Assembly (NCBI GenBank): GCA_015272155.1
Contig: JACYME010000042.1
Span: 1 to 50,889, forward strand
Reading direction: 5' to 3'
Source of the DNA: Leptolyngbyaceae cyanobacterium T60_A2020_046
GTDB lineage: Bacteria > Cyanobacteriota > Cyanobacteriia > Phormidesmidales > Phormidesmidaceae
DNA length: 50,889 bases
Below, piece by piece: positions 5,381 through 20,586 of this stretch. Below the pieces are notes generated by a model. That model was not told where the DNA came from, made no database searches, and saw only the letters and a list, made by a program, of their open reading frames with translations. Position 1 is the stretch's first letter, and each line of letters opens with the position of its first letter. The translations under genes and the position numbers were made by a program.

Positions 5381-7138
5381 CTAAGATGCCGCCACGGTGC
5401 GGGAGGTGCCCCCCGGCAGGCTGGCAATCGTTTGCCGAAGTTCTGCGATCGCCTGAAGCTGATAGTCACTGGCTTCCTGAAACTTCGAGATAGACTCAGC
5501 CGTCTCACTCAGCTTTTGACGCAGCCCCTCAATGCCTTCTTGCAAAGGCCCAACCAACGCTTCAAAGAGGCTGGCCTTGCTCTCTAGTGCTGCAACCGCA
5601 GCCTTCTGCTCAGCAATCCGAGCTTCCAAGTTTTGAATCTCAGCCTGAGCCATAACCTGTTCAGCCGCTTTTTGCTCCACCTCTTGCTTCAGCCCATCAA
5701 TCTTGCCTTGAATGTCTTTCACCTCTTGCTCGATCGCCTTGAGGTCTTCTGAGGTCTGCGTCCGTAGCGCATCAATTTGCTTCAACACAGGTTCCAAATC
5801 CACTGCGCTGACAGGCGTTTCCTCTGCGGCTATGCCCTGGCGACGACGGAGCACCGCCTGATGTTGACTCAAAATCTCTTCCCGTTCGAGCAAATTACGA
5901 CGCTGCCCCACTAGGGTTTCGTTTAACATGCGATAGCGATCTTGCTCATCGGCCAATTCGGTTTCAAGTTGCAGCCGATCGAAATCATTTGCCTCGCTGA
6001 TTTTTTGCTTGATTTCGTCGATCGCCTGCTGCTCTAGGTTCAGCTCTTCTTCCTGATCGCTGACAAAACGAGAAACCTTTTCCAAATCCTTCTCAAGATC
6101 CTCAACTAAAGTTTGCAGCGCGTTGATATCCATACTTTCCAGTGCAGCGACATCGACCTTGTCACTCAATCGCACCTTGTCAGAGGTGTTGAGAAGTTCA
6201 TACACCTGCTGATAGAGGTTGCTCTGAGACTGTAGGCGCTGGGAAACCTGCTGAATTTGCTCTTGCTTGAGTGCCAGCAACTGCTGCTGAAACTTAAGAT
6301 CGCTCCGTCGTCCAGTCAAAACGGCTTCCGCATCTTGCCAATTTTTTCTACGCTCAGCGATCGCAGACTCATCCTGTTGAATCTGCTGATACTTTGACTC
6401 AAGCTCGGCTTTTTGCCCCTCAAGGGTCGTCTGATGATCCGTCAGCCCAGACTGCTGCTGATCCACCAAGCTAAAGGCCAAGTTCAGTTGCTCGCGCACC
6501 CCCTCCGTCGGCGTGACCGCACTCATCAGGCGATCTAGGGCCTCCTGAATCTGCTGAACCTGCTCCTCATCCAACCCGGCAACCTGGCTCGCCTCTTCCT
6601 GACGTTCTTCAAACCGCCGAATTTCGCCATTGAGATGCGCCCAAGCTCCCTCCAGTTCCTGATTCTTGCGCTCTAGTTCTTGGCGGAGTTCTTCCAGAGC
6701 CTGCTGTGCTGTTTCGACCTCTTGACGCTGACTTTCAAGCTGTTCTAAATCCGCCTCCGCTTGTTCGACCTGCTCTTGGCGAGTCTCGAGCTCCATCTCC
6801 CGACGGTTAAGTTCCTGGCTCTGGAACGTCAGTGACTGCTTCCACTGCTCAATTTCGTCCTCTTGAGCCTTGAATTTTTTGCTCTGGTTAGAAAAGTTTT
6901 GCAGGATGCCAACTAAAGGACGACCCGCATCATAGTGGCGCTGGATCTGTTTATTGCCTCCCATCTCAACCATAACGAGGGCACCCGCGTTGTAAGTCGC
7001 GTCATCAGGGGCGGTGACCAATTCCTCACCCGGTACCGGCGTCCACGCCTCACCCCGCTGACAGGCAATCAACTTAAACTCTGCCTTACCACTGCCGATG
7101 AAGCCGCTCTTTTTTTGAACCTCAGCCAGATAAAGCAC
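5381..7138 (-). CDS. hmpF: Pilus motility protein HmpF
   Basis: This protein of about 585 residues has a short globular N-terminus (MLYLAEVQKKSGFIGSGKAE... to about residue 95) followed by almost continuous coiled coil rich in Glu, Gln and Leu. This is the architecture of HmpF, a cyanobacterium-specific protein required for type IV pilus-driven motility and localised at pilus poles or septa. I place the start at GTG 7138. It gives the family N-terminus MLYLAEVQKK and is preceded by AGAGGA at good spacing. A longer frame reaches 7183 but adds residues absent from homologues. It lies divergent to hmpA-E, the arrangement I recall from Nostoc punctiforme, which strongly supports the assignment. 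Confidence 0.92.
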   Translation of the reverse strand: MLYLAEVQKKSGFIGSGKAEFKLIACQRGEAWTPVPGEELVTAPDDATYNAGALVMVEMGGNKQIQRHYDAGRPLVGILQNFSNQSKKFKAQEDEIEQWKQSLTFQSQELNRREMELETRQEQVEQAEADLEQLESQRQEVETAQQALEELRQELERKNQELEGAWAHLNGEIRRFEERQEEASQVAGLDEEQVQQIQEALDRLMSAVTPTEGVREQLNLAFSLVDQQQSGLTDHQTTLEGQKAELESKYQQIQQDESAIAERRKNWQDAEAVLTGRRSDLKFQQQLLALKQEQIQQVSQRLQSQSNLYQQVYELLNTSDKVRLSDKVDVAALESMDINALQTLVEDLEKDLEKVSRFVSDQEEELNLEQQAIDEIKQKISEANDFDRLQLETELADEQDRYRMLNETLVGQRRNLLEREEILSQHQAVLRRRQGIAAEETPVSAVDLEPVLKQIDALRTQTSEDLKAIEQEVKDIQGKIDGLKQEVEQKAAEQVMAQAEIQNLEARIAEQKAAVAALESKASLFEALVGPLQEGIEGLRQKLSETAESISKFQEASDYQLQAIAELRQTIASLPGGTSRTVAAS

Positions 7139-7715
7139 GCCGGTCGTCCTCTTTCCATTGCGATGGGCAACCCGAGCCCCCAAACATCCTGCGAACTCGG
7201 CTCCAAGCTGTGACCCGAGAGAGCAAGGCCCCGTTCACCTTGGGCAGAGTGGATGCGCTAGACGCAAGGGCACGAAACCCCAGACTTTAAACATGATGCC
7301 CTTAACCTAGCGCATGCGTTCAAAAGATGACTGAATTTCGCAGAGGGCTTAGATTGCTCCCAATTGTAATGGGTTCAGCTTCGGGAAACATGGTTGCAAG
7401 TTGTTCTTTATCGCGAATTTTCCCACGATCGCGATCGGATAGCTGCCCATTGGGACAGGATAAGCCATCGTCGCCTAGAGACAGGCATCTGCGAATATAC
7501 TGTTGACAGCGTTGACAACTCAACCTGACTGATTGCCTCACGTCCCAGCCCCGTTCACCGTGGAACCTCAGACTGGGAGAATGCCCAGAACCGGAACTGG
7601 CGCATTGCAATGAGGGAATGTCTGCATGTCTGCCGCAGCTCGGGCTAGTTAAGATTAAGATGTTACGTTGAGGATTCTGTCGGGACGGATGACCACCGAG
7701 GGATAGCTGACGAAT
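7139..7715. promoter_or_regulatory. Divergent hmpF/hmpA control region
   Basis: This 577-base region separates two divergently transcribed motility units and must hold both promoters. A direct repeat GTTGACA occurs at 7502-7508 and 7511-7517. The second copy is part of an inverted repeat, GTTGA-N4-TCAAC, at 7511-7524, which could be a regulator site or overlapping -35 elements. TAAGAT near 7650 is a possible -10 for hmpA. None of this is proven. A frame of 146 codons on the minus strand (7320-7760) overlaps the start of hmpA and looks spurious. Confidence 0.4.
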
Positions 7716-8981
7716 ATGCAGGGGCGACTGGTTGAGATCGATATTCGCAGCATTCTCCAACTGATTGAGTTGGGTCAGCGTACCGGTGAGCTGTATGTTG
7801 AAGCCTACCCGACATGGACACCCATCGCGATGGGCGATCGCGCCGAAGAAGCACCCTCTCCCCAGTCGTGGCTCGTCTTTCTATTTAATGGGCAGATTGT
7901 GTACGCAGGCACCACCGATGGTCGCCTCAACCGTCTGCGGGATCACCTGCATCGCTACGGTCTTGATGATGCCCTAGCGAAAGCCAACGTTGATTTATCC
8001 GCCATCTCAACCTTCAACTCCCCAGAGTATGGCTATCTGTGGGCATTGCTCGAAACCCATGTGCTTACCCCCGAGCAGGGACGCACGATTCTCAATGGCA
8101 TGGTTCATGAAACCCTGTTTGATCTGTTGAGCCTGCACCACGGATCCTTTGTCTTTAAGCTCGGCTCTGGGTTAAGCCCCCGCCTCAAAACCTTTGAGAT
8201 TGGCCCCTTAGTGACGAGCATTACCCAGCAAATCCAAGAGTGGAAGCAGTTTCATCCTCATATTCAGTCACCTCACCAGTGCCCAACCTTAGCAGATACC
8301 AAGCGGATAGACGAATCAGATTCCCTCCAGGGCAATCGCCTGTTGCAGTGGATGGATGGCAAAACCTCGGTGCAGCAAATGGCGCGCTATCTCAACCGTA
8401 GTGTTGTGGCTGTCGCAAAGGGTCTCTATCCCTACGTGCGCCGGGGAGTCATTCAGTTTCCCCAAGCGATCGTGTTTGAGCCCCTAGCGTCGGATTTAGA
8501 AGAATGGGATGCGGCGCGGGTGCCTCGGGTGGTGTGTGTGGATGATGGCCTCACCATTCGCCAAACGGTGGAGCAGATTTTGGACGAGCATGGCTACGAA
8601 GCAACGTCGATTGGCAATCCACTGCGGGCACTGAGCTTACTGTTTCAGCTCAAGCCCGATCTGATTTTGTGCGACATTGCCATGCCAGAGCTAGAGGGCT
8701 ACGAGTTGTGTGCTATGTTGCGCCAATCCACAGCGTTTCGCCAGACGCCCATTGTGATGTTGACTGGGAAAGATGGCTTCATCGATCGCGTCAAGGCCCG
8801 CATGGCCGGGGCGACGGACTATCTCACTAAACCCTTTGGGGCTCAAGAACTACTGACCCTAGTGGAGAAGTATGTCGGGTTGGGCAACCCACAGCGCCCC
8901 GAGCCGGATAGCCTGCTGGCAGCGGCGATCAAGGATGATCCTGAACTGGATGTTGGCCCGATGCCTCCTCTGGGACGATAG
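7716..8981 (+). CDS. hmpA: PATAN/DUF4388 response regulator HmpA (PilG/PatA-like)
   Basis: A 421-residue regulator. Residues 1 to about 240 are the cyanobacterial N-terminal effector domain (MQGRLVEIDIRSILQLIELGQ..., DUF4388/PATAN type) found in PatA, PixG and PilG. Residues about 265-385 are a receiver domain with the acidic pocket VCVDD, the phospho-acceptor Asp in LCDIAMPELEG, and the conserved Thr and Lys in VMLTGK and TKPF. It would be phosphorylated by the CheA-type kinase HmpE and pass the signal to pilus motors. It is the first gene of the five-gene plus-strand cluster. A 306-base gap before hmpB may hold a second promoter or processing site. Confidence 0.88.
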   Translation: MQGRLVEIDIRSILQLIELGQRTGELYVEAYPTWTPIAMGDRAEEAPSPQSWLVFLFNGQIVYAGTTDGRLNRLRDHLHRYGLDDALAKANVDLSAISTFNSPEYGYLWALLETHVLTPEQGRTILNGMVHETLFDLLSLHHGSFVFKLGSGLSPRLKTFEIGPLVTSITQQIQEWKQFHPHIQSPHQCPTLADTKRIDESDSLQGNRLLQWMDGKTSVQQMARYLNRSVVAVAKGLYPYVRRGVIQFPQAIVFEPLASDLEEWDAARVPRVVCVDDGLTIRQTVEQILDEHGYEATSIGNPLRALSLLFQLKPDLILCDIAMPELEGYELCAMLRQSTAFRQTPIVMLTGKDGFIDRVKARMAGATDYLTKPFGAQELLTLVEKYVGLGNPQRPEPDSLLAAAIKDDPELDVGPMPPLGR

Positions 8982-9287
8982 GGGTGGTTGGGGAACTCAG
9001 GCGCGGTTGGATTCTGACGCGGCGTTTGGCGATCGCCCACAGCGTGCAGCGCCCAACTCGTAAGGATTGGGAGTGCTGAACAGGACATCTCAGCTAAAAT
9101 TGTCAGGCGGCAGCTTTCTCGCACATCAATTTCTTCGATCCTTCAAGGATTTCCTGAATTTAGGGGTACTTTAATGGTCACAGGAACAGTGCTTGAAGCC
9201 GTTTCACGCTGTCACCGTCACCGGCAAGCACAGTGGGATTCTTGAACCTATGTTTCAGGGGAGCCAATTGGTGAGTTATTGAATACT
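8982..9287. other. Intergenic region hmpA-hmpB
   Basis: About 306 bases without a gene. I see one HIP1-like site near 9028 and no clear terminator. Overlapping open frames are out-of-frame extensions from hmpA. An internal promoter for hmpB is possible but not identifiable by eye. Confidence 0.4.
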
Positions 9288-9656
9288 ATGAGCATGGTTT
9301 TAGTGGTGGAAGACAGCGTTCCCCAACGGGAAATGATTACCGATCTGCTTCGGGGGAGTGGATTGCAGGTGACAGTGGCTGGCGACGGTGTTGAGGCTCT
9401 GGAGCATATTCAATCGGGGCAGCCGCCCGATTTAGTGGTTCTTGACATCGTCATGCCCCGCATGAATGGGTACGAGCTGTGTCGTCGGCTCAAGGCTGAT
9501 CCATCCACCCAAAATGTTCCCATCGTGATGTGTTCGTCAAAGGGCGAAGAATTTGATCGCTATTGGGGCATGAAACAGGGTGCGGATGCTTACATTGCTA
9601 AGCCATTCCAGCCTAATGAGTTGGTGGGCACCGTTAAGCAACTCCTTCGGGGGTAG
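9288..9656 (+). CDS. hmpB: CheY-like response regulator HmpB (PilH-like)
   Basis: A single receiver domain of 122 residues with no output domain. The acidic pair is in VVEDS, the phospho-acceptor Asp in VVLDIVMPRMNG, followed by VMCSSKG and the conserved Lys in IAKPFQP. Such stand-alone receivers act as the diffusible CheY/PilH partner of a CheA kinase. The frame opens at TTG 9279, but ATG 9288 (MSMVLVVEDS) fits the family start better; ATG 9294 is also possible. It lies 20 bases before hmpC and is surely co-transcribed with it. Confidence 0.9.
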   Translation: MSMVLVVEDSVPQREMITDLLRGSGLQVTVAGDGVEALEHIQSGQPPDLVVLDIVMPRMNGYELCRRLKADPSTQNVPIVMCSSKGEEFDRYWGMKQGADAYIAKPFQPNELVGTVKQLLRG

Positions 9657-10252: not shown

Positions 10253-13006
10253 ATGGCGTCAAGTACTGATTACTCTCAAGCATACCAGAAAGCTGAGAGA
10301 GCCTATATGCAGGGGAGCTATGAAGAAGCTGCCACTGTCATTGATCAGCTCGCCGCCGAGTATCCCACCGACCCGAGTGTGCTCTTGCTGCGGGGGCATA
10401 TCTATTGTTATGGCCTCCAGCAATATGCTGAGGCGCAGGATCAATATCGGGCTGTTCTTAATATCACGACGGATCCTGAGTTTGTAGATTTTGCCAATAA
10501 TGGGTTGGCCTATGCCAGTCAGTTTGTCGCCGCCGAAGAAGAGACGGGCATGAGTACGGGGAATACAAATGCCACCCTGGCGGATGTTAACTCGGATGAA
10601 TTTCGGGCGTGGGCTCAGCCTGAGGCCGGTGATGTTACCGACATGGGCGGGGAAAAGGCGTTTAACTTTGACGATCTGGGGCTAGGTGATATTGACTCTG
10701 GAGAAATGGCGAGTGTCAATTCTCCCGGGGATGAGTTTGCAGCCTCTCCCTTTGGAGGGGGGGCGATCGCCGATGACCCTGAAACCCAAATGTTCGCTAC
10801 CGATCCCTTTGCTGAGGATCCCTTTTCCCCTTCTAACGGGGAAGCGGTCGAAGCAGGGGGCGATTTAGGTGAGGACGACAACAATCCTTTTGCAGATGCC
10901 AACAATCCTTTTGCAGATGCCGGGTTGGCAGCCATTGAGCAAGATGCATCCGCCGATGACTTTGGGGCAGGCGATCCCTTTGCGGATTTTGAAAACTTTG
11001 CGACCGCTGAAACTGAACCCATTGACTTTGACAATGTGGACAGTTTTGAGAATGGGGACTTTGCCAGTGCCTACACCTCGGATGACGCCACCTTTGGGGC
11101 CGTGGGGCATTATCCGGCTCCTGAGGATCAGACGCTCTTTATGCCAGAGCCAGGCTACTCTGCTGATACCCATGAGCAAGATAGTGGGAATGTGTCCGGT
11201 GCAGCTCCAGCTACCGATGACTATGGCACCTATGATTATGCCGAGAATGGGGCCGCGATCGCGGACAGCAGCTCTAGCCCTAGCAACGTAGATTTTTTAG
11301 ATGAGTTTGACGAGTTTGACGACCTCGGTAGCCTGCCCGACTTTGAACTCACCGACAGTTCTGCCGGATTCACTAGCCCCTCCGTCGGCACCTCTGGACT
11401 CGGCTCCACCGACGATGGGAGTAGCATGAGTGACTCAGGCTTCACCCTCAGCGGGGTCGGTGAGTCGGCCATTGATAACGAGGAGATTTTTAGCATCTCG
11501 GGGACGGCGGAACAACTGCCGGCCTTCGCACAGGTCGATGATGGGGGCGAGCAGGTACAGGTCGAGCAGGGCTGGCTGGCCCCCCTCGAAAATTCCTCCA
11601 TCGACGCTAAGCAGATGATCGTTGCAGGGGCCGCAGGGGTAATGTCGGCGGTGGCAGTGGCGGTAGTCAACTTTGTGGCCTCAACGATGGCTCCGCCGGA
11701 GCAAAATCTGCCCCGGGGGCTGCACGCGGTAATGGCCGGGGCTGCGGGCTTAGTCGGGTTTGGCACCGCAGCTGGGGTGGGCGCGATCGCCAACCGCCGC
11801 ACCAAGCAAACCGTAGAAAACCTGCAAGAGCAGTTCAACGTGGTGTCCCAGGGCAACCTCAACGCCCGTGCCACGGTTCTCGTCGATAACGAATTTGGTC
11901 GCTTGTCCTCGAGCTTCAACCAAATGGCCCGCGTCATCCTCACCACCACAAGTGAAGCTCAGCGCAAAGCCCAAGAACAAGAACAGGCCAAGGAAGATTT
12001 GCAGCGCCAGGTGATTCGTCTGCTGGATGATGTGGAAGGTGCAGCCCGAGGCGACCTGACGGTGCAAGCGGAAGTCACCGCCGACGTATTAGGAGCCGTT
12101 GCCGACTCCTTTAACCTCACCATTCAAAACCTCCGGGAGATTGTGCAGCAGGTGAGTGTGGCAGCTCGTCAGGTGAGTAAAGCCTCGACGGAAAACGAGA
12201 TGTTTGCCCGCAGCCTCTCCGCAGATGCCCTGCGCCAGGCTGAGGAACTCGCCGTCACGCTGAACTCTGTGCAGGTGATGACTGACTCCATTCAGCGGGT
12301 GGCAGAGAGCGCCCGCGAAGCAGAGGAAGTGGCCCGTTCTGCATCGGCAACAGCCTTGCGTGGCGGTGAGTCGGTGGAACGCACGGTGGCTGGCATCCTC
12401 GAAATCCGTGAGACCGTGGCCGAGACGACCCGAAAGGTGAAGCGCTTGGCAGAATCCTCTCAGGAAATTTCCAAGATTGTCGCGCTGATTTCTTCGATCG
12501 CTTCCCGAACGAACCTGCTGGCTCTGAACGCAAGTATTGAGGCTGCGCGGGCGGGCGAAGCCGGACGAGGCTTTGCAATCGTGGCAGATGAAGTACGTCA
12601 GTTGGCCGACCGAGCTGCCAAAGCCTCAAAGGAAATTGAGCAAATCGTCTTACAGATTCAAAGTGAAACCAGCGGTGTGATGACTGCGATGGAGGAAGGC
12701 ACCCAACAGGTGATTGAGGGGACGCGCCTCGCAGAACAAGCGAAGCGATCGCTCGAAGACATCATCCAGGTATCAAACCGCATTGACGTATTGGTGCGAT
12801 CCATCACCGCAGACACCGTAGAACAAACGGAAACCTCCCGGGCTGTCGCCCAAGTGATGCAGTCTGTGGAATTGACAGCCCAAGAAACCTCCCAAGAGTC
12901 CCAGCGAGTGTCAGCATCGCTGCAAAACCTAGTGGGAGTTGCCCGCGACCTGCTCACCTCCGTCGAACGATTTAAGGTTGATAGGGGCGAGGGCAAAGGG
13001 CGATGA
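10253..13006 (+). CDS. hmpD: Methyl-accepting chemotaxis-like protein HmpD (PilJ-like)
   Basis: 917 residues. Residues 1-100 resemble TPR-type helical repeats ([18 protein letters not shown]). Residues about 105-445 are an acidic, low-complexity linker that includes a perfect tandem [14 protein letters not shown]. Two Ala/Gly/Val-rich hydrophobic segments at about 451-479 and 489-516 could be membrane helices with only about ten residues between them, so there is no periplasmic sensor. Two HAMP-like units follow (about 520-565 and 586-632), then the signalling domain with the conserved tip [20 protein letters not shown] near residues 750-770. It should relay a cytoplasmic signal to HmpC and HmpE. 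AGGAG precedes the ATG. Confidence 0.9.
10880..10921 (+). repeat. Perfect 21-base tandem duplication inside hmpD
   Basis: Two adjacent identical 21-base units encode NNPFADA twice in the acidic linker. The exact identity, including synonymous positions, implies a recent slippage duplication and suggests that linker length varies between strains. Confidence 0.8.
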
Positions 13007-13192: not shown

Positions 13193-16100
13193 ATGATGCC
13201 TGAACAGCAGCAGAGAATCCTGGGATACTTCATCGAAGAAGCGAAGGATCATCTCAATACCATTGAGCAGGGCCTGCTGAACCTCCAGGCCACCATCGAA
13301 GATCACGAGATGGTGAATGAAGTCTTTCGGGCCGCGCACTCCGTCAAAGGCGGAGCAGCCATGCTGGGAATCGAAAGCGTCCAGCAAACCTCCCACCGAC
13401 TCGAAGATTATTTCAAGATTCTAAAAGAATCACCCGTCCAGACCGATCGCACCCTGGAATCGATGTTTCTCCAGGTCTTTGACGGGTTACAGTCCCTCAT
13501 TGAAGAACTCCAAGGCCCCTTTGGCCTAACTGACGACAAAGCCCAAGAAGTCATGGCCGACATTGAGCCAGTTTTTGGGCAGCTTGAGCAACACTTGAAT
13601 ACGCTAGTTGCCCAATCGGCGGGTGCACCCGCCGCACCGCCACCCCTTGCCGCCGCACCCCGCGCGTCCAGCCGCCCCCACAGCGAAGAAAGCGCCCTCA
13701 AACTTGTCTTTCGCAGCGATGTCCCCGCTCACCTGCGAGACATGCTGAGCCTCTTCAAGCAGGCTGACACCCCCGAAAGTCGCCAGACTTTACAAGAATC
13801 CTGTGAGGCATTGCTGCGCATTGGCGAGCAGTTTGAACTCAGTGCTTGGTGTTTGCTGCTCCAAGCGGCACGGGCTGCGGTTGGGAATCCTCAACAAACC
13901 TATCGCGCCCTAGCTCCAATTGTGATCAAGGACTTGAAGCAAGCCCAAGAGTTGGTGCTCTCTGGGCAAGAGCCTCAGGTTTTGGTGTCTGATGCGTTGC
14001 AGGCGATGGTGCCCGAGCCCGTGGCGATCGCGGCGGATACCAGCGACGACATTGACGCCTTGTTAGATGACGCACTCTCAGCCACCGAAGAACCTGACTT
14101 TGAGGAATTGCTCACCAGCAGCATGACCGAGGCTCAGCTCACGGGCAGCGGCGATCTCGACCTGGATTGGCTCGCCCCCCCCGCCACAGAGTCAAGGGCT
14201 GAGGAATCAGTCAATCTTGGCCTTGATTTAGGCGCGGCATTGGAGGCAACGAGCCAACCCGGACTAGGGGATGAGTTTCCGCCCCAAGAGCCGGAAGTGG
14301 GCACCGCTGAGCTCAATAGCTTAGCGGATCTGTTTGAAGGAGAAATGTCGAGCCTTTCGACCCCGTGGCAAGATGCGGAACAGTCCGATGGTGAAAATGA
14401 CGCAGGATTATTAGACATTGAGATTTCTGATGACTTCTCCGACCTCTTGGCGGAAGAGGGGGGGACGGATCAGGGAGACGATCGCACCCAAGCTGATCTC
14501 GTTGGGTTATTCGGGGATATGGGGATTGACACCGACATGACGGCCCCAGAGACGAACCCTGCGGCTGCAAGCAATGACGACTTTGCCGACTTGTTTGATG
14601 TTGCCAGTGATGCCCCCAGTCACGAGAGCAGCAGTGATGCAGACCTGGATGCGCTGCTCGATAGCGTCCCTGCCGCCGAGGCAACGCCCCCGATTAACTC
14701 AGCATCGGAGGATGCCTCTGAATCTGTCGTAGAAGCGGGCATCTTGAACGATTTGGGTGATCTGTTTGGGGATAGTGAAGAAGCAGACGCTTCCGCTGAG
14801 TTAGGCACAGATCTGGATCTTGCTTCGGATCTCGCATTCCTGGATCAGGGTGCCGCTGAATCAGAGGATCTAGACGACCTCAACTTTAATTCAGATGAAG
14901 CCATTGCCCCTGAGGCTGATTTTGACCTGGGGTTTGACCTAGAGATGGGCGACGCTGAAGAGTCCGTTGATCTCGACCTCGGGTTCTCAACGGATGTTGA
15001 TGCGGCGGCGGCAAATACCGACTCACGCCTCACAGAGGAGGTGTCCTTTGAGGCGGCGATCGCCGATGACAGCGCCATTACACCAGAGGGCAATGCCGAC
15101 TTTGATGATCTCTTTGGGGGTTCTGAAGATACCGCAGAGCACGAAGGCGACGGAGATCTGGACTTGGGGCTTGTCTTTGAGTCAGACGAGGCTTTGGATT
15201 TCAGCGCCACCGACCTGGAAGCCAGCGCCACCCAAGACGATGATTTAGACTTTGGCGACCTGGATCTGGAGGGTAGCCTTGAGGAAAGCCCCACAGAGGT
15301 CAATGATGATCTCGATCTAAGTCTAGGAACTGACCCGAGCCCCGCGATCGCCGCCGATGAGTTGCTAGATGACCTCTGGAATGAGGGGACGATGGCCACT
15401 TCTCCCGCGATCGCCGCTGCCACAGAACCCGCTGCCCTCCCAGATTTAGATGACCCCTGGGAGGAAGAAGCCGTCGGCAGCGATGAGGATGCGCTCAGCG
15501 CCCTCGACAGTCTCTGGGATGGGCAGCCGGAATCTGGAGAGGATGCTGCCACTGCGGATGCAGACGACGAATTTGGAGATTTTGAGGCCCTCGACTTTTC
15601 CGAAACAGACGCTGCGACGCCTGAATCCGCGATCGCCACAACATCGGAAGAGGCCGACCTCTTTGATGCTGATCCGATTGGCCAATCCAGCACAGAAACC
15701 AGCCCATCTGCGGATCTTGACGATCTCTTTGGGGACGATCCCCTCAGTGACAACGCCGCTCCGGGGAACACAGCCCAAACTGACGATCTCGACACCGATG
15801 ACTTTTTTAACCTGGAATCCCCTGACTCCCCCAGCGCCGTGGCGGAAGTCGAGGATCTGGATGAATTAGCAGATGAAGCGGTGACCGCTTCATCTGCTCC
15901 AGCAGCGGCTGCACCGGAGTGGAGTGAGACATCCGCCGAGGCTGAGGATCTCGATCTGGGCGATCTCTTGCTCGATGCTGAACCGGAACAGGCTTCGTCC
16001 TCCGATCTGGGTTTTGAGGGGCTGGATATGGATATCGACACCGCTGAACCCGAGATGGCAACATCAGAGTTCGACGCCCTGCATTTAGACGTGCCCGAAG

Positions 16101-18844
16101 CGGTGACCCCTGAGGCATCGGTATTCGATGATTTACACCTTGATGCAGACAGCACAGAGCCTGTCTCCGTGGAGATGGGTGACCTAGGTGAACTCGACTT
16201 TGACGCCTTGGGCCTTATTGATGACTCGGTAGAGGCTAGTGCAGAGGGTGAGGATCTGGACTTTGATGGCTTGGGCCTGAGTGACGACGAAGTCGTCGAG
16301 TCGGGTTCTCCAGGGGAGGCGATCGCCGCCTTTGGCGAAGACCTAGACGAACTGCTTGCCGACACAACGGGCAGTGACGACATCGCGGCATCCATGGGCG
16401 ATCTCCTTGAGGAATCCCCAGCCAGTTCTGAAGATGATGCCGCAGCCTTTGACGATCTCGATGCACTGCTGACGGACGAAGGTGCGGATGTCACACCTGA
16501 GGCAACCGCCGATAACGATGAAAGCGACTTTGACGATCTCGATGCCCTCCTGACAGATGACCGTGCAGAGGACTCCGGTGACGAGGAGGATGGTGGCTTT
16601 GATGACCTCGATGCCTTGTTGGCAGAGCCCGAATCAGCGGCGGCGATCGCGACTCCCTCCCCCGAAGCTGGGGTTGATTTCGACGAACTCGACGCTCTGC
16701 TGGAAGACGAAGCCTCAGAGGTGGATGCTGAAGCGTCTGATATGAGCAGCGGTGAGTTTGATGATCTCGAACGCTTGCTCGAAGAAGCGGATCAGACCCT
16801 CGGCGGTTCTTCTCCCACGATTCGGGCGGGGAGTGGCAGCACGCGATCGACACGACGGGTCAGCGCAATGGTCGATCAAACCATGCGCGTTTCCGTGAAA
16901 CATCTCGATACCCTGAGCAACTTAGTCGGGGAGCTTGTAGTTAACCGAAACTCGCTGGAGCAAGACCAAGAGCGGCTGCGCCAGTTCCTCGATAACCTGT
17001 TGTTCCAAGTGCAGCAGTTGAACGATGTGGGTCAGCGAATGCGCGATCTCTACGAGCGATCGCTCCTTGAAAGCTCCCTCATCTCCAGCCGACAGGCCTT
17101 CCACGGGTCTGGTATGGCCCGCAGCGGCGAAGGCAACGGCGGCAGTTCCCACGCCACTGGAGCAACCTTCGACGCCTTGGAAATGGATCGCTTCACCGGC
17201 TTCCATACCCTATCCCAGGAAATGATCGAGCTGATCGTCCGAGTGCGTGAGTCCGCCTCCGATATCGGCTACACCGTTGACTCCTCCGAGAACATTACCC
17301 GCCAATTCCGGCAGGTCACCACCCAACTCCAAGAGGGCCTGAACAAAGCCCGCATGGTGCCCTTTGCCCAGACCGTTGATCGACTGCCGCGCGCCGTGCG
17401 CGACATTTCGCTCAAGTGTGGCAAGGAAGCGCGCCTCGTGGTCGAAGGGCGTGACACCCTCATCGATAAGATGATCCTAGAGCGTCTGTTTGACCCCATG
17501 ACGCATCTGGTCAACAACGCCATCACCCACGGCGTGGAAACGCCCGAAGAGCGTGTGGCCTCGGGCAAGCCCCGCGAAGGCACGATTACGGTGCGGGCCT
17601 TCTATCAGGGCAACCAAACCGTGATTTACATCGCTGATGACGGGGCCGGCATCAACCCCGATCTGGTCAAGCAAAAGGCCATCAAGAAGGGGCTGATTAC
17701 CCAAGCGGAAGCGCGATCGATGACGGTGCTCGACACCTACGAATTACTCTTCCGGCCTGGGTTTAGTACCCGAGACAAGGCTGACGACTTCGCCGGACGC
17801 GGCGTCGGTATGGATGTGGTGCGCACAGCCCTGTCTGAAATTCGGGGCAGTATCACCATCGACTCTGAGATGGGCCGGGGCACAAGCTTCACGATTCGCC
17901 TACCCCTGACCCTGAGTATTTCCAAGGCGCTGAGCTGTCTCAATAACCAAGCCCGCATCGCTTTCCCGATGGATGGGGTTGAAGACATGTTTGACGTACC
18001 CAAGGATCGGGTACAAGTAGACAACGCCGGCCATATGAGCATTGTGTGGCGCGACTCGATGCTGCCCTTCCAGCCGTTGTCAGACCTGCTACAGTTCAAC
18101 CGCACCTTGGGCCGAGGGCGCGTCTATGGCGGCAGCCAAGACGAAGATATGGTGTCGATTGTGGTGCTGCGCAGTGCCAACACCCATATTGGCGTGCAGG
18201 TCGATCGCGTGTTGGGCGAGCAAGAAATCGTGATCAAACAGCTCGAAGGCCCGGTGCCCAAACCGATTGGGATTGCTGGGGCTACAGTGCTCGGGGATGG
18301 CCGGGTGATGCCCATTGCCGACGTACTCGAACTGATTGACATTGCTCAAGGTCGGGTGCGGCGCGAGGGTGGAGCCTCGCTCTGGAGCCAAACCGAGGAG
18401 CCTCCAGTCGAAACGGCTGCCCCCATCAAGACCGAGCCGACGGTACTGATTGTGGACGACTCGATTACGGTACGCGAACTGTTGTCAATGAGCTTCAACA
18501 AGGTGGGCTACCGAGTCGAGCAGGCTCGGGATGGTCAGGAAGCTTGGGAAAAACTGCGATCGGGCCTGCCTTGCGACTTGGTGTTCTGCGACATTGAGAT
18601 GCCGCGCATGGATGGCCTAGAGCTGCTGTCTCGGATGCAGAAAGATGGCACGCTGAAGAAAATTCCCATCGCGATGCTCACCTCGCGGGGGGCAGATCGC
18701 CACCGTCAAATGGCCCTAGACTTGGGGGCCAGTGGTTACTTTACCAAGCCTTATCTCGAAGAAGCTCTGTTGGATGCAGCGCAACGGATGCTCGGAGGAG
18801 AGGTGTTGCTGACGAAGGCAGGCGGCGCATCGGACAACGATTAA
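13193..18844 (+). CDS. hmpE: Giant CheA hybrid histidine kinase HmpE (PilL-like)
   Basis: 1,883 residues, far longer than a standard CheA of about 650-700. Residues 1-140 are the phosphotransfer domain, with the phospho-acceptor His49 in AAHSVKGGAAMLG. Residues about 290-1,215 are an acidic linker dominated by Asp, Glu, Ala, Leu and Ser with recurring DLDDLF-like motifs, ending in five FDDLDALL-like repeats at about residues 1,085-1,195. Then come the dimerisation domain (VKHLDTLSNLVGELVVNR), the ATPase domain (LVNNAITHGVE, DDGAGI, GRGVGMDVV), a CheW-like domain, and a C-terminal receiver with the acceptor Asp in FCDIEMPRMDG and Lys in TKPYLEE. It is predicted to phosphorylate HmpA, HmpB and its own receiver. 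GGGGGA precedes ATG 13193. Confidence 0.92.
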   Translation: MMPEQQQRILGYFIEEAKDHLNTIEQGLLNLQATIEDHEMVNEVFRAAHSVKGGAAMLGIESVQQTSHRLEDYFKILKESPVQTDRTLESMFLQVFDGLQSLIEELQGPFGLTDDKAQEVMADIEPVFGQLEQHLNTLVAQSAGAPAAPPPLAAAPRASSRPHSEESALKLVFRSDVPAHLRDMLSLFKQADTPESRQTLQESCEALLRIGEQFELSAWCLLLQAARAAVGNPQQTYRALAPIVIKDLKQAQELVLSGQEPQVLVSDALQAMVPEPVAIAADTSDDIDALLDDALSATEEPDFEELLTSSMTEAQLTGSGDLDLDWLAPPATESRAEESVNLGLDLGAALEATSQPGLGDEFPPQEPEVGTAELNSLADLFEGEMSSLSTPWQDAEQSDGENDAGLLDIEISDDFSDLLAEEGGTDQGDDRTQADLVGLFGDMGIDTDMTAPETNPAAASNDDFADLFDVASDAPSHESSSDADLDALLDSVPAAEATPPINSASEDASESVVEAGILNDLGDLFGDSEEADASAELGTDLDLASDLAFLDQGAAESEDLDDLNFNSDEAIAPEADFDLGFDLEMGDAEESVDLDLGFSTDVDAAAANTDSRLTEEVSFEAAIADDSAITPEGNADFDDLFGGSEDTAEHEGDGDLDLGLVFESDEALDFSATDLEASATQDDDLDFGDLDLEGSLEESPTEVNDDLDLSLGTDPSPAIAADELLDDLWNEGTMATSPAIAAATEPAALPDLDDPWEEEAVGSDEDALSALDSLWDGQPESGEDAATADADDEFGDFEALDFSETDAATPESAIATTSEEADLFDADPIGQSSTETSPSADLDDLFGDDPLSDNAAPGNTAQTDDLDTDDFFNLESPDSPSAVAEVEDLDELADEAVTASSAPAAAAPEWSETSAEAEDLDLGDLLLDAEPEQASSSDLGFEGLDMDIDTAEPEMATSEFDALHLDVPEAVTPEASVFDDLHLDADSTEPVSVEMGDLGELDFDALGLIDDSVEASAEGEDLDFDGLGLSDDEVVESGSPGEAIAAFGEDLDELLADTTGSDDIAASMGDLLEESPASSEDDAAAFDDLDALLTDEGADVTPEATADNDESDFDDLDALLTDDRAEDSGDEEDGGFDDLDALLAEPESAAAIATPSPEAGVDFDELDALLEDEASEVDAEASDMSSGEFDDLERLLEEADQTLGGSSPTIRAGSGSTRSTRRVSAMVDQTMRVSVKHLDTLSNLVGELVVNRNSLEQDQERLRQFLDNLLFQVQQLNDVGQRMRDLYERSLLESSLISSRQAFHGSGMARSGEGNGGSSHATGATFDALEMDRFTGFHTLSQEMIELIVRVRESASDIGYTVDSSENITRQFRQVTTQLQEGLNKARMVPFAQTVDRLPRAVRDISLKCGKEARLVVEGRDTLIDKMILERLFDPMTHLVNNAITHGVETPEERVASGKPREGTITVRAFYQGNQTVIYIADDGAGINPDLVKQKAIKKGLITQAEARSMTVLDTYELLFRPGFSTRDKADDFAGRGVGMDVVRTALSEIRGSITIDSEMGRGTSFTIRLPLTLSISKALSCLNNQARIAFPMDGVEDMFDVPKDRVQVDNAGHMSIVWRDSMLPFQPLSDLLQFNRTLGRGRVYGGSQDEDMVSIVVLRSANTHIGVQVDRVLGEQEIVIKQLEGPVPKPIGIAGATVLGDGRVMPIADVLELIDIAQGRVRREGGASLWSQTEEPPVETAAPIKTEPTVLIVDDSITVRELLSMSFNKVGYRVEQARDGQEAWEKLRSGLPCDLVFCDIEMPRMDGLELLSRMQKDGTLKKIPIAMLTSRGADRHRQMALDLGASGYFTKPYLEEALLDAAQRMLGGEVLLTKAGGASDND

Positions 18845-19281
18845 CTCAGAGCCGCAATGCGTCGGTCAACTGTGCACCAAAGCCGGGGTCAAGTCAGCCT
18901 AGGGGGGTGTGGCCGTAACAGGCGTGATGGGTGGAACGAGGCGATCGACCGGATTGATTCAGGTGTTGCCTAAGTGATGGGGCTAAAGTCAGCCCTCTGC
19001 GATCGCCCGAAAGCCGTCGCGCTGTAGGGTGCTGCCCACGCGATTCTCAACTCAAGGACTTTTGGCTTCTAAGATCGCTTTTGGGGTGGGGGGGTGCTCT
19101 ACTGTCCACCGTCATGCGTGGATGCTGACTGCCTGACACTGCGCAATAATGGGTGGAACGGTTACTTCTGATACAGACGCTGATACAAACGCCGGGCCGG
19201 GTTTTGGGCGTGCTGCTGAACCAAGTGTTTCTATCAGATGTGCGATCGCGCGCTAGATCTTGTCCCTCATCAAACCTTGCC
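18845..19281. other. Intergenic region hmpE-rca
   Basis: About 437 bases. I see HIP1 octamers, no clear terminator hairpin after hmpE, and no credible small gene. An in-frame extension of rca up to 19153 is open but does not resemble the conserved activase N-terminus, so this stretch probably holds the rca promoter and leader. Confidence 0.4.
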
Positions 19282-20586
19282 ATGACCTACTACATTGCCC
19301 CTCGGTTTCTTGAAAAGCTTGCGGTTCACATCACCAAAAACTACCTCAAGCTGCCTGATGTGCGGGTACCGCTGATTTTGGGCATTCATGGGCGCAAAGG
19401 CGAGGGCAAGACCTTCCAGTGCGAACTGGTTTACGAACGTATGGGCGTTGAGGTGGTTCACATCTCCGGTGGCGAACTGGAAAGCCCCGATGCTGGGGAT
19501 CCGGCACGGCTGATCCGACTACGCTATCGCGAAGCCGCAGAATTAGTGCGCGTGCGTGGCGTGATGGCCGTCCTGATGATCAACGACCTCGACGCCGGAG
19601 CCGGGCGCTTTGATGCCCAAACCCAGTACACGGTGAATACCCAACTGGTGAACAACACGTTGATGAATATTGCGGATAACCCAACCAACGTGCAGCTTCC
19701 CGGCAGCTATGACGACAAGCCGATTCAGCGCGTCCCCATTTTGGTCACGGGGAATGATTTTTCGACCCTATATGAGCCGTTGGTTCGCGATGGCCGCATG
19801 GAGAAGTTTTATTGGCAGCCCGATCGCGCTGATCGCATTGGTATTGTGGGCGGTATTTTTGCGCCTGATCATCTGGGGACGGCGGCGATCGAAAAGCTGG
19901 TCGATACCTTTTCTGAACAGTCGATCGACTTTTTTGGGGCGCTGCGATCGCGCATCTATGACGAACAAATTCGCGACTTCATCCAAGACATCGGCATTGA
20001 AAACGTGTCTCGCCGGGTTGTGAATAGCGAAGTGCCGCCCGTTTTTCAGAAACCCAACTTTCAGCTTGAGCACCTGCTCGCGGTGGGGCACGACATGGTG
20101 TTAGAACAACGCCATCTGCAAGACATGCGCCTGGCGGATCAGTACAACCGTGCCCTGCGTGAACGGCGTGTTGGCGCTGCACCGCGTCCTACGGCTGACG
20201 AAGGGCCAAGCTTTTATCGGGCCTATCGTCAGGAGGCGAGTGAAACAACTCATCCGGCGACTGCACCCACCGAACCAGCGACACCGCCACCCACCCCGCC
20301 CCAAAGCTCGGGTGCTAGCGTCTCCTTGGGGGATGAGGCGGCCCAACACGTCCGCAACCTGTTGCAGCAGGGATACCGCATCACGATGGAGCATGTCGAT
20401 CGCCGTCGCTTCCAGACGAATTCCTGGAAAAGCTGCACAACCCTGGATACGCAGGATCCGGCGGCAGCAACCACGCTACTGAGTCAGTGTATGGCGAACT
20501 TTCCCAACGAATATGTGAGGCTGGTTGGGTTTGATCCAAAAACAAAGCAGCGCGTCTTAGAGCATATGATTCAGCGCCCTGCCTAG
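19282..20586 (+). CDS. rca: Rubisco activase with C-terminal small-subunit-like domain
   Basis: A 434-residue AAA+ protein. It starts at MTYYIAPRFLEKLAVHITKN, the conserved activase beginning. Walker A is GRKGEGKT near residues 38-45 and Walker B VLMINDLD near 97. The AAA+ core ends near residue 300, followed by a Pro/Thr/Ala-rich linker. Residues about 352-434 are a Rubisco small-subunit-like (SSUL) domain (VRNLLQQGYRITMEHVDRRR), as in CcmM and in Rca of several filamentous cyanobacteria. The AAA+ part removes inhibitory sugar phosphates from Rubisco, and the SSUL domain recruits Rca into carboxysomes. Cys385 and Cys403 are 18 residues apart, matching the redox-active pair known in a CcmM SSUL domain. 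Confidence 0.95.
   Translation: MTYYIAPRFLEKLAVHITKNYLKLPDVRVPLILGIHGRKGEGKTFQCELVYERMGVEVVHISGGELESPDAGDPARLIRLRYREAAELVRVRGVMAVLMINDLDAGAGRFDAQTQYTVNTQLVNNTLMNIADNPTNVQLPGSYDDKPIQRVPILVTGNDFSTLYEPLVRDGRMEKFYWQPDRADRIGIVGGIFAPDHLGTAAIEKLVDTFSEQSIDFFGALRSRIYDEQIRDFIQDIGIENVSRRVVNSEVPPVFQKPNFQLEHLLAVGHDMVLEQRHLQDMRLADQYNRALRERRVGAAPRPTADEGPSFYRAYRQEASETTHPATAPTEPATPPPTPPQSSGASVSLGDEAAQHVRNLLQQGYRITMEHVDRRRFQTNSWKSCTTLDTQDPAAATTLLSQCMANFPNEYVRLVGFDPKTKQRVLEHMIQRPA

Follow-up and report, generated by a model that had tools for sequence, protein, structure and literature searches.

How does a pilus-controlling CheA that carries no P2 domain find and hold two receivers, and how does the Hmp system localize HmpF? 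These questions are raised by a kinase gene on contig JACYME010000042.1 of Leptolyngbyaceae cyanobacterium T60_A2020_046 (GCA_015272155.1), of which a stretch of 50,889 nt, hereafter the window, was analyzed. Pfam identified in the kinase, HmpE, an Hpt domain (aa 9-106), H-kinase_dim (aa 1229-1284), HATPase_c, CheW, and a C-terminal receiver, and the locus consists of a divergent hmpF-like gene followed by hmpA, B, C, D, and E; domain content and gene order both place HmpE among the cyanobacterial Tfp-class CheAs (HmpE/PilL class). The hmp names used here are based on domain content and synteny, and the name HmpF on synteny and coiled-coil hits. The Hmp system of Nostoc punctiforme has the same gene order and strands, according to the locus tags given in an excerpt of PMC10581220 (R5959 for hmpF, F5960-F5964 for hmpA-E). 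This system and Tax3 (PilG-PilL) of Synechocystis are the closest known counterparts, the likeness being judged from the N. punctiforme locus order. HmpE was the single CheA found in the 4.2-Mb, 250-contig assembly. Shortly 3' of hmpE, positions 19153-20586 encode a rubisco activase-like AAA protein with a C-terminal RuBisCO_small-like domain.

The Hpt and dimerization domains are separated by a region in which 28% of the residues are acidic and L, A, and S are abundant (Table 1). A preliminary description of this DNA had reported a highly acidic linker of approximately 1,000 residues that closes with five FDDLDALL-type units. The acidity and the five units were confirmed; the length was also right, except that aa 165-265 are better conserved and possibly folded. 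The first two unit positions given there were exact, but the last three were 1-2 bases off and are in fact nt 16598, 16679, and 16757, the last being the start of FDDLERLL at aa 1189, 43 residues N-terminal of the dimerization-domain anchor RVSVKHLD. The starts of the five units are 27, 23, 27, and 26 aa apart.

Table 1. Features of the hmp locus considered in this study (positions in the window; residues of the respective protein in brackets)
Feature	Position (nt)	Strand	Basis
HmpF-like coiled-coil gene, divergent, beside hmpA	5381-7183	-	coiled-coil hits only, synteny
HmpA, DUF4388 and receiver; candidate partner	7716..8981	+	Pfam
HmpB, single CheY-like receiver; preferred candidate partner	9279..9656	+	Pfam
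HmpC, CheW protein	start 9677		locus order, Pfam
HmpD, receptor	start 10253		locus order, domain content
HmpD TPR-like N-terminal domain (aa 1-98), conserved	10253-10546		TPR hits below Pfam cut-offs
HmpD linker, conserved acidic/aromatic motif (aa 346-373)	11288..11371	+	pattern, alignment
HmpE/PilL-type CheA kinase, 1883 aa	13193..18844	+	ORF, Pfam
HmpE Hpt-to-dimerization inter-domain region (aa 107-1228), 1122 residues, D+E 312, K+R 22	13511..16876	+	composition count
HmpE second conserved linker island EVGTAELNSLADLFEGEMSSLSTPW (aa 368-392)	14294..14368	+	column conservation
HmpE motif copy 1, FDDLDALL (aa 1086-1093)	16448..16471	+	pattern
HmpE motif copy 2, FDDLDALL (aa 1113-1120)	16529..16552	+	pattern
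HmpE motif copy 3, FDDLDALL (aa 1136-1143)	16598..16621	+	pattern
HmpE motif copy 4, FDELDALL (aa 1163-1170)	16679..16702	+	pattern
HmpE copy 5, widely conserved terminal form GEFDDLERLLEEADQTL (aa 1187-1203)	16751..16801	+	pattern, orthologue alignment
HmpE C-terminal receiver (aa 1745-1870), candidate cis partner	18425..18802	+	Pfam

A linker of such composition may be viewed as an acidic spacer, or a former of condensates, that is shaped by composition alone, with the FDDLDALL units as chance products of low complexity; its many acids, L, A, and S, and its variable length (688 to 1373 aa in 40 complete proteins, window included) are consistent with this view. We therefore compared aa 280-1213 of HmpE (934 residues) with 20,000 composition-preserving shuffles of the same segment. 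The pattern F[DE][DE]L[DE].LL occurred five times in HmpE against a shuffled mean of 0.0019, and no shuffle contained more than one unit. Composition alone was thus rejected as the source of the five units. The terminal copy is moreover conserved in a sequence-specific manner, which largely refutes the spacer reading for this copy, and identical copies differ synonymously in their codons. We consider the spacer reading highly improbable. The "many" DLDDLF-like motifs of the preliminary description proved a generous wording, with four sites besides the five units (aa 302, 636, 841, and 1050), but the pattern is enriched, with eight overlapping matches where the shuffles gave 0.36 on average and 6 at most.

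At the DNA level, Tandem Repeats Finder detected no tandem repeat at the motif region. The three identical FDDLDALL copies differ pairwise in 2, 4, and 5 of 8 codons, and every change is synonymous. Because no tandem DNA repeat is present and identical units differ synonymously, the peptide rather than the DNA has been retained; a recent tandem duplication was rejected on the same grounds, no near-identical DNA units being present. A serine-rich open frame of 549 aa (14845-16494, minus strand) lies antisense to the acidic linker and most probably results from the codon usage of the latter.

To examine conservation, we assembled 53 loci from named genomes and 60 regions hand-picked among the matches listed in a search of phylum genomes, which had yielded a match in 210 of 386 genomes. 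An overlapping copy of the window (L001) was left out, and some regions overlap loci (L084 and L090 are one gene). After greedy removal of near-identical entries, 71 HmpE-class proteins were left of 113, and 30 other CheAs remained, one of them (L051) a fragment of an HmpE reading in two frames. Column conservation was computed over 40 proteins in which a single ORF holds both the Hpt and the core (the window protein and 39 from the 53 loci). An alignment of 38 HmpE sequences combined the window protein with 37 of the 49 orthologues that were eligible. The core F-x-[DE]-L-[DE]-x-[LM]-[LIM] was found anywhere in the protein in 61 of the 71 HmpE/PilL-class sequences and in 1 of the 30 other CheAs (L074, residue 654 of 786). 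A looser pattern, drafted after inspection of the orthologues, matched anywhere in the ORF in 69/71 and 9/30, respectively. Within the 80 residues preceding the dimerization anchor, the looser motif occurred in 64/71 HmpE-class proteins (shuffled mean 0.3, maximum 2) and in 0/30 other CheAs, in 26 of which the anchor was extrapolated, so that they do not form a fair positional control; the class restriction consequently rests on the position-free count. Ten of the 71 proteins lack the F-core anywhere (L087, L098, L112, L113, L117-L121, and L125), and some of these carry variants such as LSELDKLL or FDDLVELL.

Among the motif copies, conservation is concentrated in the terminal one. The mean identity was 0.18 for aa 266-1075 and 0.69 for aa 1187-1206 (column conservation, 40 proteins). 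In the terminal motif, the 38-sequence alignment shows no variation at L118 and E119 and at least 90% conservation at F115, D117, L121, and L122. The terminal form reads D-E-F-[GDS]-D-L-E-[KR]-L-L-E-E-A-D-Q (61 instances) and the upstream form D-F-D-D-L-[ED]-A-L-L with no clearly conserved tail (117 instances), the in-pattern positions of both having been selected by the pattern. Motif position 5 is E in 93% of the terminal copies versus 56% of the upstream copies. Copies in the last 250 residues numbered 0, 1, 2, 3, 4, and 5 in 2, 14, 21, 15, 12, and 7 of the 71 proteins, so that the window HmpE is in the top copy-number class; the extra copies vary from none to four across the class. The spacing of 23-27 residues noted in the preliminary description is a feature of the window HmpE and not of the family, in which inter-copy spacing is loose (quartiles 26, 35, and 52). 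In the largest sampled family (L096-L110), the terminal EF[SG]DLEKLL was present in 9/15 proteins, and a strict [DE][DE] copy in 1/15, in contrast to five in the window HmpE. The orthologue comparison that the preliminary description had proposed therefore supported it for the sequence and place of the last copy but not for the number and spacing of the upstream copies. Because the place of the last copy is kept while copy number and spacing are loose, these alignments identify the terminal copy as the constrained element and the repeats as a variable elaboration. The feature is a short linear motif that is conserved, was secondarily multiplied, and probably serves docking. Closer to the Hpt, aa 165-265 (13685-13987) form a conserved, probably helical stretch without a Pfam hit (mean identity 0.59 versus 0.18 for aa 266-1075), which may be a folded domain.

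The last copy, detected with the looser pattern, precedes the anchor by 37-48 residues in 56 of the 71 proteins and by 54-60 residues in 5, and 10 have none within 62 residues. This near-fixed distance would suit a motif acting in cis, that is, one that folds onto the HmpE core, its receiver, or the dimer partner and tunes kinase activity or substrate access. Such a role is also consistent with retention of EFKDLE[AK]LL in L090, L091, L092, L093, and L095, in which the profile detected no Hpt and which were taken for split PilL-C-like kinases, and with the basic segment following copy 5 (K+R 4, D+E 1 in 26 residues). We modeled HmpE 1075-1883 with AlphaFold2 using the 38 sequences (mean pLDDT 62.7, pTM 0.38). 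The predicted helices (13-20, 41-47, 63-69, 91-97, and 114-129) match the motif starts (12, 39, 62, 89, and 115); the motif blocks have a pLDDT of approximately 41-67 within low-confidence surroundings, and the helix of the terminal motif is the longest and most confident of the five (63-67). The model of this single chain, judged by its confidence values, nevertheless revealed no confident docking of the motif, its own receiver included, and a purely internal clasp would leave up to four extra copies unexplained; we regard the cis role as unlikely. Most of the orthologues sampled retain the units although the linker around them varies, so that they behave as a conserved short helical motif, the helices being predicted at low confidence. 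To this extent the preliminary description, which had read them as multivalent docking sites, is supported; receiver docking and condensation of the array would be candidate roles. The helix prediction fits folding upon binding. A sequence search of the PDB with the motif region gave a best E of 0.67.

No P2 domain was found in HmpE by Pfam, either in the whole protein (E 0.001) or in aa 1-302 and 1075-1229 (E 5). In this respect HmpE resembles the Tfp-class CheA of P. aeruginosa, which an excerpt of PMC10782961 describes as having no P2. In CheA, P2 is located between the Hpt and dimerization domains, as is the HmpE motif, and both would present a receiver to the Hpt; CheA P2 is, however, a folded domain, whereas HmpE has a linear motif instead.

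The best known motif of such a kind in chemotaxis is EIDALL of FliM/FliY. It resembles the HmpE motif in the chemotaxis setting and in being a short acidic amphipathic segment around [DE]-[IL]-[DE]-x-L-L. Among the FliMs compared directly, from E. coli and from this phylum, those of the phylum read ILSQxEID[AS]L[LM], VLSQDEIDALL, or VLSQ[ND]QID[SV]LL. Set against the EIDALL core with E/D and I/L exchange allowed, HmpE gives a divided picture: copies 1-4 read [DE]LDALL, and the terminal copy reads DLERLL, elsewhere mostly DLE[KR]LL. The likeness is hence closest in the variable copies, since the conserved terminal copy has E where EIDALL has D. Further differences are that FliM has L-S-Q before the core, where HmpE has [DE]F; that the F of HmpE, which is nearly invariant and stands three positions ahead of the first L, corresponds to Q in FliM; and that the HmpE motif occurs in up to five copies in a kinase, whereas EIDALL belongs to a flagellar switch protein. 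No FliM hit was obtained in the own genome, and the HmpE motif does not lie in a FliM/FliY switch protein. A PDB search with the FliM N-terminus returned FliM core structures as its only sensible hits.

An HmpE-motif profile was run over 38,791 windows, with the best 30 windows per ORF ranked and with assumed background frequencies. The FliM sites ranked 2, 3, 4, 5, 13, 17, 38, 74-76, 173, and 253-255, so that an EIDALL-type site was within the top 17 in 6/14 FliMs and within the top 255 in 14/14. No FliM site reached the score of the weakest HmpE instance (maximum 6.8 versus 7.3). Rank 1 and ten further places in the top 17 went to unrelated windows, and the CheZ C-terminal peptide scored -5. 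The resemblance is real but partial, and likely reflects convergence rather than descent.

Docking is the reading of the motif that we favor, with a receiver as the putative partner, the latter being the weakest part of our proposal. A receiver is favored because DLDALL resembles FliM EIDALL, which, according to an excerpt of PMC9126983, binds the groove formed by alpha4 and alpha5 of CheY. In the mechanism that we prefer, although tentatively and at somewhat less than an even chance, the HmpE motif would bind the alpha4-beta5-alpha5 face of the receiver HmpB, HmpA, or both and thereby stand in for the missing P2. The acidic linker would then be a flexible string bearing the docking motif [DE]-F-x-[DE]-L-[DE]-x-L-L. 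Disordered alone, the motif would form one short amphipathic helix upon binding, with F, L, L, and L on one face and the acids on the other. One copy, EFxDLExLLEEAD, sits at a near-fixed place approximately 40 residues before the dimerization domain in most sampled cyanobacterial HmpE/PilL proteins, with four more upstream here. The motif would hold receivers near the Hpt and raise their local concentration at the array, and more copies would strengthen the effect.

Such a "linear P2" would be the most economical single reading because of the likeness to FliM, the lack of a P2 hit, and the invariance of HmpB alpha4-beta5: identity to the window protein was 0.996 in alpha4, 1.00 in beta5, and 0.89 in alpha5 of HmpB and 0.79, 0.67, and 0.82 in alpha1-alpha3 (39 sequences, window included). 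The conservation of alpha4-beta5 would nonetheless follow from any output partner. Lysine 119 of CheY is a FliM contact; it is not kept, and L, T, and A align with it in HmpA, HmpB, and the HmpE receiver. This substitution, the Q of FliM in place of the HmpE F, and the lack of confident docking by AlphaFold2 argue against receiver capture, as does the finding that no further protein of the genome was seen with the pattern in a linker. Owing to the E of the terminal copy, our estimate for receiver capture was lowered slightly, and that for a scaffold partner, considered below, was raised slightly.

The distribution of the motif outside HmpE was analyzed in the own genome and in plasmid CheAs. 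The FDDLDALL-type pattern matched seven times in the 4.2-Mb genome, five of the matches being the HmpE units, and a reversed-pattern control matched 0 times; by reading of the ORFs, the other two lie in a methyltransferase/glycosyltransferase-like ORF and a HAD-like ORF. A general proteome occurrence was therefore rejected for this genome, with HmpE and two enzyme-like ORFs as the only carriers. In a small sample of six plasmid CheAs (three Deinococcus, two Pseudomonas, and one Allocoleopsis; core start extrapolated in L177 and L178), the looser motif was found before the core in none. The Pseudomonas plasmid CheAs (1962 and 1881 aa) are thus unlike HmpE, although the ChpA-type (Tfp-class) CheA of Pseudomonas shares with HmpE a receiver at the C-terminus and an extended N-terminal portion. 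In P. aeruginosa, polar localization of PilH requires ChpA, and that of PilG partly does, according to an excerpt of PMC10519157. All six plasmid proteins act with or next to receivers. Receiver capture alone therefore leaves the class restriction unexplained, because these motif-less CheAs also work with receivers. The motif is real, conserved, and largely class-specific, and no published description of it was found in the literature searched.

The restriction to HmpE/PilL proteins fits a class-specific partner. The motif might dock the kinase to an Hmp-specific scaffold or polar hub, most plausibly HmpF or another protein of the pilus base; the linker would then tether the array at the pole or cluster it there. 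The hmpA gene of the window has an HmpF-like neighbor, and such a gene was found in 28 of 52 loci, with flanks incomplete in many. An excerpt of PMC12288463 describes control of HmpF localization by the hmp system and interaction of HmpF with Hfq and PilT. In the HmpF-like protein, the N-terminal 100 residues have a slight basic excess (K+R 12, D+E 9), but the whole protein is acidic (K+R 70, D+E 111), its name derives from synteny and coiled-coil hits, and neither sequence nor structure linked the motif to it. We consider a scaffold partner doubtful, but a serious candidate.

HmpD has a conserved acidic motif of its own, as if both proteins bound one hub. Its F..FDDL-type pattern was present in 36 of 39 sequences (window included) within a poorly conserved N-terminal linker, and the HmpD alignment comprised 32 of 37 sequences plus the window; this motif might serve the same hub as that of HmpE. 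Residues 3-98 of HmpD were predicted to adopt a TPR-like helical fold (AlphaFold2 of HmpD 1-446, pLDDT mostly 96-98). Foldseek returned generic TPRs, the list being headed by peptide-binding ones (Tah1, STUB1/CHIP, and HOP in the first ten, one match with E <0.001), and the stretch is conserved. These findings raise the question of whether the HmpE motif docks to this domain. The stretch is, however, acidic (K+R 4, D+E 15 in 98 residues) and a poor match for an acidic peptide, and the HmpD motif was not confidently docked onto the same chain in the HmpD 1-446 model (pLDDT 50-60). Docking to the HmpD TPR-like domain is thus very unlikely. Several DPF/NPF tripeptides, some at conserved columns, occur in the HmpD linker at approximately 10748-10990.

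On a broader view, cyanobacterial pilus kinases may have replaced a folded P2 by a multi-copy FliM-like motif whose number sets receiver capture by avidity; together with the second motif in HmpD, this would give a layer at the pilus pole that holds receivers or HmpF and can be tuned. This combined proposal is rather doubtful. Eight conserved residues at a near-fixed place offer a precise handle for peptide or mutant work, and a long "featureless" CheA linker can contain conserved sites invisible to Pfam.

The column conservation of the 40 proteins revealed a second peak in the HmpE linker, EVGTAELNSLADLFEGE (aa 368-384), with the consensus EVGxAELNSLADLFEGE and a hydrophobic rhythm, L..L..LF, as in the FDDLDALL-type motif. 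By alignment, two or more kinds of conserved motif are thus present in the linker amid poorly conserved sequence. LxxLADLF was present in 33 of the 43 HmpE-class proteins with >900 residues before the core and in 0/30 other CheAs. The LADLF pattern is not specific at the DNA level, with three genome matches versus three for the reversed control, and two of its matches lie in ORFs that look enzyme-like by reading.
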